The notes beneath the pieces were generated by a model. The model saw only the letters and a list, made by a program, of their open reading frames with translations. It was not told where the DNA came from and did not search any database. Shown here piece by piece: positions 288-35,982 of a stretch of 42,036 bases of DNA. Positions within the stretch are counted from its first letter, which is position 1. Every line of letters starts with the position of its first letter. Source of the stretch: Deltaproteobacteria bacterium (lineage in GTDB: Bacteria; Desulfobacterota; GWC2-55-46); NCBI GenBank assembly GCA_016235365.1, contig JACRLF010000008.1, forward strand, positions 1 to 42,036, written 5' to 3'. A program made the position numbers and the translations under genes.

Positions 288-500
288 GCTAAATTCTCAA
301 CCGCGTACCTCGCAACCTGCTCAAACGCTATGGGGGCGGCCTGGAGATTGCTTCGTCGCGTGCGCTTCTCGCAATGGCGACTAAAGACTTTTCCGCAGCC
401 TGCTAAAGAGCCGCCGCATGGCAGACCAGAGCTCTGCCATGCGGCGCCACGTTCTATCCGTATTGTTTGGCCGGCAACCTGCCGGCCTCGTCTAAACCCC
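288..500. other. Gene-free stretch with repeat ends
   Basis: No convincing coding region. It contains further element-end sequences (TTTTTCAACAACCTGCTAAA and TTTTCCGCAGCCTGCTAAAG types) and an ATTGC/GCAAT-flanked palindromic stretch around 350-380. It looks like layered debris of short dispersed repeats. Open frames on both strands here have no recognisable product. Confidence 0.5.
413..445 (-). terminator. Hairpin terminator after the glutaredoxin-like gene
   Basis: A perfect 13-bp stem (GCCGCATGGCAGA with its complement) and a 7-nt loop lies about 55 nt past the stop codon at 501. On the minus strand it is followed by GGCTCTTTAG, a poor U tract, so termination is plausible but not certain. 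Confidence 0.5.
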
Positions 501-716
501 TCAGGTGCCCCCGAAGCCCGCCACCACGGTCCCGCCCTCAACTATCACCGGGACCTGCCTCATGCCGCCGCTTGCCTTGAGCATCCTGTCCATGTTCTCA
601 GGGGACGCCTTCACGTTGACGTATTCGACCAGGTACCCTTTTTTCGCGTATTCCTCACGGGCCGCGTTAGTGTACGGTCAGGTGTCCTTACCATAGATTA
701 TCACTTTTTCAGGCAT
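501..716 (-). CDS. Candidate selenocysteine glutaredoxin-like protein (in-frame TGA at codon 13)
   Basis: Read through one TGA, this is a 71-residue glutaredoxin/thioredoxin-fold protein. It opens MPEKVIIYGKDT, then TGA, then PYTNAAREEYAKKG, and ends in a conserved RQVPVIVEGGTVVAGFGG segment. The TGA (678-680) falls exactly where this family has its redox Cys (CPYC/CPYT), and the frame stays open with family-like residues on both sides. A strong ribosome site (AAAAAAGGAGGGATCC) precedes the ATG, and a good promoter lies at 782-809. Just after the UGA the RNA can fold: GACC-GUAC (679-672) pairs with GUAC-CU-GGUC (636-627), and a CGCG/CGCG pair lies inside, as a bacterial SECIS might. Sec-containing glutaredoxin homologues are known in deltaproteobacteria. 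The alternative is a nonsense mutation of a Cys codon. The likely role is thiol or peroxide redox chemistry, but the substrate is unknown. Confidence 0.75.
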
Positions 717-781
717 GGATCCCTCCTTTTTTGAAAACGACGTTATGCGCCCTTTGACTTCGCACTGAGGCGTCTCGATAG

Positions 782-809
782 ATTATATCAAAAATACCTC
801 TCCTATCAA
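782..809 (-). promoter_or_regulatory. Sigma70-type promoter for the glutaredoxin-like gene
   Basis: On the minus strand TTGATA (804-809), a 16-nt spacer and TATAAT (782-787). It sits about 65 nt upstream of the ATG at 716 and downstream of the nth stop, so the small gene has its own promoter. Confidence 0.65.
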
Positions 810-4049: not shown

Positions 4050-4131
4050 TGAACATGCATAGCGAGCGCATAGAAATATATACTCCCTTATATGTCGAAG
4101 ATTCCCCGCGGCTTGCCGCGGGGAGCTTCAA
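4050..4131 (+). repeat. Two-hairpin dispersed repeat, copy B (internally deleted)
   Basis: Starts TGAACATGCATAGCGAGCG and ends GGGGAGCTTCAA, but lacks the first GC hairpin and is only 82 bp. It is the upstream member of a pair bracketing the gene at 4219-4794, with the downstream copy at 4792. Confidence 0.85.
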
Positions 4132-4218: not shown

Positions 4219-4794
4219 ATGTTGACATCCATGAGACCTATCGAGCACTTCAAGGAGATGGTCGGCGCGGCCATCGAGCACCAGAGGATAAAGACCAACG
4301 AGAGCGCCGAGTTCTACCTGTCGAACCTGCTCTCGGACTTCCTCCAGCGCGAGAGGTTGAGCGACGAGCCCCTTGCCATCACCTATATAAAGGCGCTGGG
4401 CGCGGCCAGGGAGATGCAGATACATCTTTTAAAGCAACTGGGCGACATCTCTCTTTTCACCTCCGGTTTCTTCTCGGACAGCCTTAAAAGAAAGATAGTG
4501 GACATAGACTACTACATATTGATGGGCGAGGCCTCTTACGGCTATCTCGCCTCCATCCATAAGCAGAGGTCCGGGCCTAAGGATATCTCCGTGCTCTACT
4601 CGGAGCTCGCCGCAAAGTTCAAACTATTCGTGGACGTGCTCGCCGAGGTGAGCGAGCGGAGCAGGCTGACGTCCTCAAGGGACATCCTTAGGGTCTATGA
4701 GAGGTGGCTCCGGACAAAGAGCAGGCAGGCGGAAAAGATATTGAGGGACCTCGGCATAGAGCCCGTGGCGGTCTCCACGAGTCCGCTGCACTGA
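4219..4794 (+). CDS. Conserved-looking hypothetical protein, helical
   Basis: 191 residues, not recognised. The sequence is rich in Leu, Arg, Glu and Lys with no signal peptide or membrane segment, so it should be a soluble, largely alpha-helical cytoplasmic protein. The ATG at 4219 has a strong ribosome site (AAGGAGGGG) 7-8 nt upstream. Codon use resembles that of its neighbours, and it has its own terminator at 4938-4978, so it is probably a real gene. Visible segments include FYLSNLLSDFLQRE, AREMQIHLLKQLGDISLF, YYILMGEASYGYLASI and YERWLRTKSRQAEKILRDLG. It is bracketed by repeat copies B and C. Its stop TGA is also the first three bases of copy C. Confidence 0.8.
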   Translation: MLTSMRPIEHFKEMVGAAIEHQRIKTNESAEFYLSNLLSDFLQRERLSDEPLAITYIKALGAAREMQIHLLKQLGDISLFTSGFFSDSLKRKIVDIDYYILMGEASYGYLASIHKQRSGPKDISVLYSELAAKFKLFVDVLAEVSERSRLTSSRDILRVYERWLRTKSRQAEKILRDLGIEPVAVSTSPLH

Positions 4795-4910
4795 ACATGC
4801 ATGGCGAGCGCGAGGCCCGCAATTTGCTGCGGGGTCAAGCGAGCGAATAGAAATAGATACTTCCTTAGATGTCGAAGATTCCCCGCGGCTTAAGCCGCGG
4901 GGAGCTTCAA
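4792..4910 (+). repeat. Two-hairpin dispersed repeat, copy C
   Basis: Full-length copy (119 bp). Its first three bases, TGA, are the stop codon of the 4219 gene. The first hairpin is GCCCGCAATTTGCTGCGGG-like, and the second is a CCCCGCGG/CCGCGGGG stem with loop CTTAAG. Confidence 0.9.
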
Positions 4911-13869: not shown

Positions 13870-14115
13870 AGACAGTTGATTTTAAGGCCGCTACTTGGTA
13901 AAAGTTACCCAGGGACGCCAGGGTAATACGGGGAAGATGAACCTGTGCCCATCCTTTGGCCTATGAGCCTGTTTCGTAGATTAGGTCTCTTCCCCTACGC
14001 TTTGTTCCAAAGATCGAACGGTATCTTAAGCCTCCCTTCGGGATGAGCTTGTATTCGCAAGGTTGATCTGAACGAAGTGGCTACCGGTGGCGCTATCCCT
14101 CACAAGGAGGCTCCT
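13870..14115 (+). other. Non-coding left end of the IS110-type element (possible bridge RNA region)
   Basis: About 245 nt without a gene directly upstream of the IS110 transposase start. In IS110-family elements this left-end region encodes the structured bridge RNA that pairs with target and donor DNA. Short complementary stretches are visible (for example CCTCCCTTCGGG), but I did not derive a full fold. Placement rests on family knowledge, not on a matched model. Confidence 0.4.
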
Positions 14116-15030
14116 ATGGCTGATTCAGTCCTCGGCATCGACATCGGCAAACGGAAGTTCGAAGTTCATCTGCTCGTAAACGGCAAGGCCAAATCCAAGT
14201 CAGTCAGCAACAGCAAAGAAGGCTTTCTTATTCTTTCCCTGTGGCTCAATAAGCACAACGCCGGCCTTGTGCATGCCTGTATGGAAGCCACAGGCAATTA
14301 CGGCGACGATCTCGCTCTCTATCTCTACGACGCCGGACACACCGTCAGCATCGTAAACCCTGCCCGCATAAAGGGCTTTGCCCAGAGCGAGCTGACCCGC
14401 ACAAAGAACGACACGGTCGACGCAGGCATAATAGCCCGTTTCTGTCTTGCCATGAAGCCGGAGCCGTGGACGCCGCCTGCGCCTGCCGTACGGCGTCTCC
14501 AGGCTATCGCAAGGCGTCTGGACGCCCTCATCGCCATGCGCACACAGGAGTTAAACCGCCTGGGAGTTGCCCACTCGCTCGTGGAGCCTTCCATCAAGCA
14601 CGGTAGGATGGGTTGAGCGAAGCGAAGCCCATCAAGCGGAGCGTAACCCAACTACCCTTCCGGCAAATCGTTGGGTTTAAAAACGCAACCCAACCTCAAT
14701 CGCCTATATCACCCCCCCTCATGCCAAAAGCCCCTCCTTGCCTTCATGGGCCTTGCGCCTAAGGACACTCTTTCAGGCACCTCCGTAAAAGGCAAGCCCA
14801 GGCTCTGCAAAATAGGCAACGCAAGGCTCAGAAAGTGTTTCTACATGCCAGCCATGGTCGCCATAAGGTTCACTCCTGTCGTTGCAGAGTTTCACCGCCG
14901 CCTCAAGGAGAACGGTAAAAACGGCAAGGTCATCGTATGCGCCGCGATGAGAAAACTCGTTCATATAATCTACGGCGTATTAAAAACCGGCAAGCCCTTC
15001 AATCCGCATTACGCACAAAATATCGCTTGA
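14116..15030 (+). pseudogene. IS110-family transposase, interrupted by a 141-bp repeat
   Basis: The N-terminal half (from ATG 14116 with ribosome site AAGGAGG) is the RuvC-like DEDD domain: VLGIDIGKRKFEVHL, ACMEATGNYGDDLALYL, FAQSELTRTKNDTVDAGIIARFC. At 14597 the frame runs into a repeat and stops at 14616. After the repeat the C-terminal domain resumes: LAFMGLAPKDTLSGTSVKG with the catalytic Ser, then GNARLRKCFYMPAMVA, ending HYAQNIA at 15030. Roughly 60-70 central residues are lost, so this is a deletion-replacement and not a clean insertion. The protein cannot be active. Confidence 0.9.
14597..14737 (+). repeat. 141-bp REP unit carrying a copy of a nudix gene 3' end
   Basis: Identical by eye over 141 bp to 15938-16078. 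It begins AGCACGGTAGGATGGGTTGAG. It includes a second palindromic part with AATCGTTGGGTTTAAAAACG and ends with 28 bp (CACCCCCCCTCATGCC... CCCCTCC) that is the stop-codon end of the nudix gene at 16088. Here it sits inside the IS110 transposase gene. Confidence 0.9.
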
Positions 15031-15513: not shown

Positions 15514-15858
15514 ATGACCACGCGCATCAATTACAGAAAGCTTGCGTTCGACAAATACCCCCCGATCTGCGCTTACTGTGGATTCGGAGTCCCAGAAGTT
15601 CTGGAGGTGGCTCACCTTGATGGTAATCGAGGGAATAATGCCGTGGAAAATATAGCCATCCTCTGTCCCAATTGCCACAAGATGCATGATATCGATTTAA
15701 TCCCAACGGAAACGATTGTGCTCATGAGGGATCGAGAAAAACGTGTTGCCTGGAGCAAACGCATGAAAGATGCTGGTGCAAAGGCAGCAGCTACTCGAAA
15801 ACGCAAACAGGCCGCAAGAAAGGCAGTAGAAACAAGGAAGCGAAATGCAGCAGGCTAA
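15514..15858 (+). CDS. Small HNH endonuclease-like protein
   Basis: 114 residues. A zinc-binding HNH fold is visible: CAYCGFGVPEVLEVAHLDG, NRGNNAVENIAILCPNCHKMHD, with two CxxC pairs and the His-Asn-His set. The tail (about 85-114) is very basic and Ala/Lys/Arg-rich (AKAAATRKRKQAARKAVETRKR), suited to nucleic-acid binding. Such proteins are metal-dependent nucleases of phages, restriction systems or cassettes; no methylase or toxin partner is nearby. Base composition is lower in GC than in flanking housekeeping genes, which suggests transfer. The stop TAA overlaps an attC-like sequence (see the next feature). The ATG at 15514 has no good ribosome site. Confidence 0.8.
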   Translation: MTTRINYRKLAFDKYPPICAYCGFGVPEVLEVAHLDGNRGNNAVENIAILCPNCHKMHDIDLIPTETIVLMRDREKRVAWSKRMKDAGAKAAATRKRKQAARKAVETRKRNAAG

Positions 15859-15937: not shown

Positions 15938-16078
15938 AGCACGGTAGGATGGGTTGAGCGAAGCGAAGCCCATCAAGCGGAGCGTAACCCAACTACCCTT
16001 CCGGCAAATCGTTGGGTTTAAAAACGCAACCCAACCTCAATCGCCTATATCACCCCCCCTCATGCCAAAAGCCCCTCC
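15938..16078 (+). repeat. 141-bp REP unit, copy at the nudix 3' end
   Basis: Same sequence as 14597-14737. Its last 28 bp (16051-16078) are a perfect tandem duplicate of 16079-16106, which holds the real end of the nudix gene. AGCACGGT is also repeated just before it. Confidence 0.9.
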
Positions 16079-26538: not shown

Positions 26539-26658
26539 TTGAAGATTCCCCGCGGCTTGCCGCGGGGAATCTTCGACATATAAGGAAGTATCTATTTCTA
26601 TTCGCTCGCTTGACCCCGCAGCTTGGCTATCGGGGAATGCGCTCGCTATGCATGTTCA
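26539..26658 (-). repeat. Two-hairpin dispersed repeat, copy E (inside the glgA 3' end)
   Basis: Full-length minus-strand copy. Its CATGTTCA end overlaps the glgA coding end, so the last nine or ten GlgA residues (MNMHSERIPR) and the stop codon come from the repeat. The distal hairpin here is a perfect extended palindrome (GAAGATTCCCCGCGG and complement). Confidence 0.9.
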
Positions 26659-28135
26659 TGTAGATATCCTTATACCTCCTTGCGGAGGCTTCCCACGAAA
26701 AGACCTCCCTCATCCCCTCCGCCTGAAGCGCCTTCCAGGCCTTTTTATCTCCGTAGGCCGCAATGGCCTCCATGACCTTGGCCGTCAGGGCCTCCGGGGA
26801 GTATTCGGCGAACTTGAAGCCGTTGGGGTTCTCCTCCGCGTAATCGCGCACCGTGTCATCGAGCCCGCCCGTGGCCCTGACGACCGGGACAGTGCCGTAC
26901 CTGAGGCTGTACATCTGGTTGAGGCCGCAGGGCTCGAACCTGGAAGGCATCAGGAAGATGTCGCTCCCCGCCTCCACAAGGTGCGACAGCCTGTGGTTGA
27001 AGGCTATCCTGACCGAGAGCTTTTCAGGATAGCGGACTGCCAGCCCTTTGATGAGGTCCTGGTACTTCCTGTCCCCTGAGCCGAGTATTACCATCCCGAG
27101 GCCGCGCTCCATAAGCTTCGGCATGGCGTCGCAGAGGATGTCGAACCCCTTCTGCTCTGCAAGCCTCGATATCATGCCTATGAGGGGGACTCCCGCCTTC
27201 AACTCAAGGCCAAACTCCTTGAGGAGGGCCTGTTTGCATATAGCCTTGCCACTTAAGTCTCTCTCCGAGTACCTTGCAGGGATGAGCGGGTCTGTCTCCG
27301 GGTTCCACTCGCCGTAGTCTATGCCGTTTATAACGCCGTGAAGGTCCTTGCTCCTTTTCTGCAAGACCCCTTCGAGCCCTGCTCCGTACTCCTTTGTCTG
27401 TATCTCCCTGCCGTACGCCTCGCTTACGGTCGTTATCATCCCGGAGAATACAAGCCCGGCCTTAAGCAGGTTCATCTTGCCCCAGAACTCAAGCCCCTCA
27501 GGGCCGAAGAGCTCTGGGCTCAAGCCAGTAAGCCGGAAAAGCTCCGCCGGAAAAACGCCCTGGTACGCGATGTTGTGGACAGTGAATACCGTGGCGGTCC
27601 TTGAAAAGAACGGGTCTTTGCCGTATGAATCCCTGAGATACGCCGGGATCAATCCCGTCTGCCAGTCGTTGCAGTGTATCACGTCGGGCCTGAACCCTAT
27701 GGCCTTGGCGGTTTCTATCACGGCCCTTGAGAAAAAGGCGAACCTCTCGAGGTTGTCGAAGTAGTCCCCTTCCGGAGTGCCGTAGAGAAAACTCCTGTCA
27801 AAGTACTCGTCGCGCCTTATGAAAAAGACGGGCACGCCCTTTGATGTCCCCTTCAACACCTCCACCCCTATCTTTCTCAAGCCCACGGGGACCGCCACGT
27901 CTATATCGACCGGCTTGACGTCGAAACCGCCCTCGGCCACCTGCCTGTGGAAAGGGAGGATGAGCGCCACGTTGCAGCCGAGGTCTTTGAGCGCGACGGC
28001 CAATGACCCGGCCACCTCCGCGAGCCCGCCGGTCTTGGCAAAAGGGATCGCCTCCGGGGAGGCTATCAATACATTGAAGCTCCCCGCGGCTTTTCCGCGG
28101 GAATCTTCGACATATAAGGAAGTATCTATTTCCAT
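26627..28135 (-). CDS. glgA: Glycogen synthase (ADP/UDP-glucose, GT5 family)
   Basis: 502 residues in the open frame, near the family length. GlgA elongates alpha-1,4-glucan from nucleotide-sugar. It shows the substrate loop PFAKTGGLAEVAGSLAVAL, VIHCNDWQTGLIPAYL, FTVHNIAYQG, GVINGIDYGEWNPETD, LIGMISRLAEQKGFD and FEPCGLNQMYSLRYGTVPVV. The ATG at 28135 and the first 20 residues (MEIDTSLYVEDSRGKAAGSF) are encoded by repeat copy F. Normal GlgA begins M-K-V-L-x-A-S, which matches FNVLIAS right after the repeat. The C-terminus (MNMHSERIPR) comes from copy E. The enzyme core is intact, so it may work with altered ends. No in-frame ATG closer to the core exists. Confidence 0.92.
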   Translation of the reverse strand: MEIDTSLYVEDSRGKAAGSFNVLIASPEAIPFAKTGGLAEVAGSLAVALKDLGCNVALILPFHRQVAEGGFDVKPVDIDVAVPVGLRKIGVEVLKGTSKGVPVFFIRRDEYFDRSFLYGTPEGDYFDNLERFAFFSRAVIETAKAIGFRPDVIHCNDWQTGLIPAYLRDSYGKDPFFSRTATVFTVHNIAYQGVFPAELFRLTGLSPELFGPEGLEFWGKMNLLKAGLVFSGMITTVSEAYGREIQTKEYGAGLEGVLQKRSKDLHGVINGIDYGEWNPETDPLIPARYSERDLSGKAICKQALLKEFGLELKAGVPLIGMISRLAEQKGFDILCDAMPKLMERGLGMVILGSGDRKYQDLIKGLAVRYPEKLSVRIAFNHRLSHLVEAGSDIFLMPSRFEPCGLNQMYSLRYGTVPVVRATGGLDDTVRDYAEENPNGFKFAEYSPEALTAKVMEAIAAYGDKKAWKALQAEGMREVFSWEASARRYKDIYMNMHSERIPR

Positions 28136-28190
28136 TCGCTCGCTTGCCCCCGCAGCAAGCTGCGGAGAATGCGCTCGCTATGCATGTTCA
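28074..28190 (-). repeat. Two-hairpin dispersed repeat, copy F (covers the glgA start)
   Basis: Full-length minus-strand copy. A base change relative to the other copies (GAATAG to GAATGG) makes an ATG, which now opens the glgA frame at 28135. It ends exactly two bases before the GlgA core sequence VLIAS. Confidence 0.9.
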
Positions 28191-35003: not shown

Positions 35004-35122
35004 TTGAAGCTCCCCGCGGCTTGCCGCGGGGAATCTTCGACATGTAAGGAAGTATATATATCCGATTCGCTCGCCTGACCCCGCGGCTTTTCCGCGGGCT
35101 GGGCGCTCGCTATGCATGTTCA
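35004..35122 (-). repeat. Two-hairpin dispersed repeat, copy G
   Basis: Full-length minus-strand copy lying exactly between ispD and ispF. Its TGA start (35120-35122) is the ispD stop codon. Confidence 0.92.
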
Positions 35123-35862: not shown

Positions 35863-35982
35863 TGAACATGCATAGCGAGCGCATTCCCCGTAGCTTGCTA
35901 CGGGGTCAAGCGAGCGAATAGGAATAGATACTTCCTTATATGTCGAAGATTCCCCGCGGCTTAGGCCAGCGGGGAGCTTCAA
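35863..35982 (+). repeat. Two-hairpin dispersed repeat, copy H
   Basis: Full-length plus-strand copy (TGAACATGCATAGCGAGCG to GGGGAGCTTCAA) 27 nt upstream of the ispD ATG. The first hairpin is CCCCGTAGCTTGCTACGGGG. Confidence 0.92.

Follow-up and report, generated by a model that had tools for sequence, protein, structure and literature searches.

A putative UXX-star family 1 gene for a small glutaredoxin-fold protein with two predicted selenocysteines in a Desulfobacterota genome

INTRODUCTION

The closest described system to the gene reported here is UXX-star selenoprotein family 1 (NCBIfam NF041114), which appears in reviews as 'distant Grx-like protein 1' and is listed in a 2026 review with a UxxT motif and two selenocysteines (Sec) (PMC13188914). 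The natural meaning of the name 'UXX-star' is a Sec followed by two residues and then a stop, and the gene studied here shows exactly such an end. The encoded protein resembles family 1 in its full-length match to the model, its UxxT active site, its C-terminal U-x-x-stop and its two predicted Sec residues, and we find no difference of substance between them. The same glutaredoxin-like domain is shared with Uxx-star family glutaredoxin-like (seleno)proteins (NF041212) and with UXX-star families 2 and 3 (NF041211 and NF047338).

Sec-glutaredoxin is listed in reviews with a UxxC motif, whereas the present protein has UxxT together with a C-terminal Sec tail. It also differs from the classical dithiol glutaredoxins (CxxC), in that the second Cys of the motif is absent. 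Native cGrx1, the Sec-containing glutaredoxin of Clostridium (Alkaliphilus) oremlandii, shares with it the glutaredoxin fold and a Sec at the N-terminal active-site position. Mammalian thioredoxin reductase ends in a GCUG tail and likewise carries a Sec near its C-terminus on a Gly-containing tail, but its fold and partner site differ, and the likeness is one of analogy only.

Here, we describe this gene in a stretch of 42,036 nucleotides (the window; contig JACRLF010000008.1 of assembly GCA_016235365.1) from a deltaproteobacterium of the phylum Desulfobacterota. A sequence-only reading of the window had proposed a Sec-containing glutaredoxin. The comparisons below uphold the selenoprotein part of that proposal, but they point to a member of the curated UXX-star family 1 rather than to a generic Sec-glutaredoxin, and to a second Sec that had been missed.

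RESULTS

A short minus-strand gene with two in-frame TGA codons

Read on the minus strand from position 716, the frame begins MPEKVIIYGKDT-TGA-PYTNAAREEYAKKG..., and its internal TGA is codon 13, at the glutaredoxin active-site position. Translated from 716 to 501 it gives MPEKVIIYGKDT-U-PYTNAAREEYAKKGYLVEYVNVKASPENMDRMLKASGGMRQVPVIVEGGTVVAGFGGT-TGA, which had been taken for a whole gene of 71 codons broken by one TGA. Past the TGA at 503-501, the window continues TGA-GGG-GTT-TAG, or U-G-V-stop, for a tail of ...GFGGT-U-G-V-TAG. The frame and its codon-13 TGA therefore stand, but the 3' end does not: the TGA at 503-501 would be Sec72, and the gene would end at the TAG at 494-492. Its features are as follows:

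492 to 716, minus strand: predicted UXX-star family 1 selenoprotein gene, complete, 74 codons (full-length NF041114 match and translation).
492 to 716, minus strand: predicted protein, MPEKVIIYGKDTUPYTNAAREEYAKKGYLVEYVNVKASPENMDRMLKASGGMRQVPVIVEGGTVVAGFGGTUGV, then TAG.
678 to 680, minus strand: TGA codon 13, predicted Sec in the U-P-Y-T active-site motif (homologue codon counts).
501 to 503, minus strand: TGA codon 72, predicted second Sec, then Gly-Val-stop (homologue codon counts).
492 to 494, minus strand: true stop, TAG (translation; homologues have TAA, TAG or TGA at the corresponding codon).
721 to 728, minus strand: Shine-Dalgarno sequence AAGGAGGG (read from sequence).
782 to 809, minus strand: sigma-70-like promoter, TTGATA-16-TATAAT, with an extended -10 (TG before the -10); 11 of 12 consensus matches.

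The good promoter and the ribosome site claimed by the sequence-only reading are both borne out, at 809-782 and 728-721, respectively; promoter-like sites with 11/12 consensus matches are expected 0.1 times by chance, as judged from shuffles. It was also right that long frames on the opposite strand hide the gene, as the same DNA holds longer plus-strand frames at 330-734 and 505-696. As genes in their own right, these two frames are mechanical, meaningless and without support.

Family membership and the C-terminal Sec codon

With Cys in place of U, the read-through protein matched NF041114 ('UXX-star selenoprotein family 1') at 113.4 bits (E = 4e-33; curated cut-off, 72 bits), and adding U-G-V raised the score to 117.4 bits, with profile positions 1-70 of 70 covered. 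The kinship with a described Sec family that had been expected of the translated frame is thus found. The protein also matched the subfamily model NF041212 (93.4 bits; cut-off, 66) and the Pfam Glutaredoxin model PF00462 (40 bits), and it fell far below the cut-offs of UXX-star families 2 and 3 (56 against 100 for NF041211 and 58 against 97 for NF047338). Matches to NF041114 above its cut-off were present in 75 of 297 sampled genomes of the phylum, most of them with two internal TGA codons. The kind is known and common in the phylum, and the window gene adds one member. The window's own genome holds a single UXX-star gene; the nearest relative (G012) has two of family 1 (L147 and L166), which are 94% and 76% identical to the window's and both look double-Sec.

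Homologues were collected from GTDB contigs and the genomes of relatives, 110 distinct sequences in all. Of these, 108 have TGA at codon 72; L143, which ends TGC-GGG-GTT-TAA, has TGC there, and L140 has TCA. A stop lies exactly three codons past TGA-72 in 97 of the 108, where about 5% (3/64 codons) would be expected by chance. Of the two codons in between, the first mostly specifies Gly or Ala and the second mostly Val or Ile, and codons 73 and 74 vary mainly at third positions (GTC/GTT/GTG/GTA, GGG/GGC/GGT/GGA), a coding-type pattern. Because the NF041114 score rises with U-G-V, and because the homologues keep TGA at codon 72 with a conserved three-codon stop, we assign the gene to 716-492 and reject a gene ending at 501.

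These data bear directly on the simpler reading that the gene encodes a single-Sec glutaredoxin, with Sec13 translated, a genuine stop in the TGA at 503-501 and a terminator in the hairpin past it. UGA is, after all, an ordinary stop codon, and a GC-rich hairpin follows it directly. We nevertheless consider this reading very improbable, given the conserved G/A-V/I-stop with coding-type third positions and the one homologue with TGC, given a hairpin that lacks a T-run, sits at a nearly constant distance from the UGA and has a bSECIS-type G/GU loop, and given a family model that ends in U-G-V-type residues for a family listed with two Sec (PMC13188914). The comparisons indicate, instead, that the window gene is almost certainly a double-Sec UXX-star family 1 selenoprotein gene. 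On this view the gene looks monocistronic, and its 74-residue product would be a selenoprotein of glutaredoxin fold that has Sec13 at its U-P-Y-T active site and carries Sec72 on a G-G-T-U-G-V tail at the C-terminus.

Codon 13 and the selenocysteine machinery

Codon 13 is TGA in 91 of the 110 homologues and a Cys codon in 19 (11 TGC and 8 TGT); the Cys set includes close relatives with about 80% identity to the window protein. This alternation, which the sequence-only reading had looked to homologues for, is at the codon level the classical Cys/Sec pair pattern. Nearly all Cys13 genes still have TGA at codon 72, and the predicted Sec72 is more conserved than the predicted Sec13 (108/110 vs 91/110).

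The genes selA, selB, selC and selD, whose presence the selenoprotein proposal called for, were all found in the window's own assembly (88.5% complete), with profile matches of 555 bits for SelA, 297 bits for SelB and 373 bits for SelD, and a tRNA-Sec with a UCA anticodon. The selB and selD genes adjoin on contig 37 (L017), with selD just downstream of selB, and selD is itself a selenoprotein gene, with an in-frame TGA at the catalytic position (SCAGUAAKIG).

Candidate bSECIS hairpins

Two hairpins are associated with the two Sec codons:

469 to 487, minus strand: candidate bSECIS for Sec72, GGCCGGCA-GGU-UGCCGGCC (fold, covariation and position).
645 to 666, minus strand: candidate bSECIS for Sec13, CGCG..CC-GUGA-GG....CGCG, within the coding sequence (covariation and Arg20 codons).

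The hairpin at 487-469, about 20 nt past UGA-72 and just downstream of the true stop, has a folding energy of -16.8 kcal/mol (z -2.61). Stems of at least 7 bp after UGA-72 occur in 78% of family sequences compared with 18% of shuffles, and in nearly all homologues the loop starts 16 to 24 nt past UGA-72 and contains G or GU. Covariation across the family reaches 0.945, compared with a shuffled value of 0.266, and each of the eight pairs shows double-sided changes; the hairpins were chosen for pairing, so that the inner pairs inflate the value of 0.945 and the clustering of position, as evidence, carries less bias. In L143 and L140, the two homologues that lack TGA-72, the hairpin looks, by eye, broken or displaced, as would be expected if it were no longer needed. 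From this comparative evidence, the hairpin is likely the bSECIS for Sec72, and UGA-72 would be read by SelB and Sec-tRNA with the aid of this strong hairpin, beginning just past the true stop.

The same hairpin may be part of what had been taken for a good terminator. That claim was not sustained, as a terminator scan of the locus found none, and the adjoining 487-469 hairpin has no T-run and is bSECIS-like. A separate 13-bp hairpin with a weak T tract, seen by eye at 445-413, might be a terminator.

For UGA-13, the sequence-only reading placed a foldable stem at the UGA itself, which our results do not support. Folded alone, the 44 nt from UGA-13 are no stabler than shuffles (z = 0.02), and the stem that does have comparative support, at 666-645, starts 14 nt past the UGA's first base, with its loop 22 nt past that base. 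Covariation in this stem is 0.239 vs 0.116 in shuffles (0/500 shuffles as high), with the outer stem unpaired in about 20% of the cells of the comparison, and the hairpin is thermodynamically weak. Its loop takes in the codon for Arg20, which is CGT, CGG or AGG in all 88 of the Sec13 genes compared. The codons CGC, AGA and CGA are used for Arg20 in 9/16 Cys13 genes vs 0/88 Sec13 genes (Fisher P = 4e-9), and at other Arg codons of the Sec13 genes in 109/283 vs none at Arg20 (Fisher P = 4e-16), although the homologues are related, so that these P values overstate independence and are too small. UGA-13 would, by the same comparative reasoning, be read by SelB and Sec-tRNA with the aid of this weak intra-coding hairpin.

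The Arg20 codons also speak to whether the window simply holds a pseudogene or a sequencing error, such that codon 13 of a Cys-type glutaredoxin had become a nonsense codon by mutation. Such an origin is suggested by TGC or TGT at this codon in some close relatives. However, TGA recurs there in 91/110 sequences from independent genomes, the frame is otherwise intact, the genome also carries selA-D and tRNA-Sec, and the synonymous codons of Arg20 are constrained only in the TGA genes. We regard this explanation as having virtually no chance of being correct and, on the recurrence of the codon-13 TGA across homologues, rejected it in favor of the double-Sec gene.

Predicted structure

An AlphaFold model of the protein is of high confidence, with a pLDDT of 93.6, and the nearest solved folds are glutaredoxins and NrdH, with the glutaredoxins cGrx1 and cGrx2 among the matches (7c10, 7c12, 4tr0 and 4tr1). 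The active site is UPYT and so lacks the second Cys of CxxC; all aligned homologues have Thr at residue 16.

Genomic context and repeats

The conserved neighbors, named by eye from sequence, are groEL, nth, ndk, rlmN, an mtnP-like gene and a gene for a PfkB-like kinase. These are housekeeping genes only, and the neighborhoods of the locus and of the relatives examined gave no clue to function. Searches of viral contigs returned only distant glutaredoxins (34% identity) and searches of plasmids only ordinary grxC, so nothing here points to the gene having come from a phage or a mobile element. Across the whole window, Rfam gave nothing at gathering scores, and we attribute a snoRNA match near the gene (E 3.9) to chance. 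Read-through frames in the window's other intergenic gaps, inspected by eye, contained nothing selenoprotein-like.

The window also contains several repeats. Its first ~290 bases, at the contig end (1-293), belong to a dispersed repeat with a CCGCGGCAAGCCGCGGGG palindrome and form one of its many whole or partial copies in the genome (74 BLAST matches on many contigs, at up to 96-98% identity). Related intergenic repeats at 4061-4114, 4792-4896, 26547-26622, 28081-28156, 35011-35086 and 35863-35967 have a CCCCGCGG palindrome and a 'AGCGAGCGAATAGAAATAGATACTTCC' core, and are perhaps a MITE or REP-like family. In addition, an exact 141-bp direct repeat (14597-14737 and 15938-16078, 1341 bp apart) adjoins frames resembling a transposase (14077-15030) and an HNH-like protein (15514-15858).

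DISCUSSION

The protein probably works as a small thiol/selenol oxidoreductase. Since the UxxT site lacks the second cysteine of CxxC, the most likely resolving partner would be Sec72 on a mobile tail, such that a Sec13-Sec72 diselenide would form in the window protein and a selenenylsulfide in the Cys13 homologues. A redox pair of this kind, with a reversible intramolecular Se-Se (or Se-S) bond, is the mechanism that we prefer, and we put it forward tentatively, as a possibility of somewhat less than even standing.

The main functional alternative keeps the same gene and the same two Sec residues, but has them bind or transfer a metal, a metalloid or a selenium species instead of taking part in thiol/disulfide exchange. 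A 2026 review suggests, for the Sec of UXX-star proteins, a possible role as a metal-binding ligand or in interactions with substrates not yet known (PMC13188914), and a UxxT site without the second Cys of dithiol glutaredoxins would be in keeping with such a role. On the other hand, no metal-related neighbors were recognized here or in the relatives examined, and both the model and the solved-fold matches describe a plain glutaredoxin. We hold this alternative, too, to be plausible at somewhat less than an even chance. Should the protein instead be a diselenide glutaredoxin, as we prefer, then the functional core of the family would lie in Sec72, given its higher conservation, and Cys could stand in for Sec13.

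The locus is a clean case of two predicted selenocysteines in a very small protein, one of them at its very end, and ordinary gene calling on such a gene would yield nothing or a truncated product. The outcome of the comparison is of use outside the window gene as well. Codon 72 is nearly always UGA, codon 13 flips between Sec and Cys, and a change to Cys at codon 13 relaxes the synonymous constraint on the first hairpin, a pattern that directs experiments on this family toward the C-terminal Sec, and not toward the active-site Sec alone.
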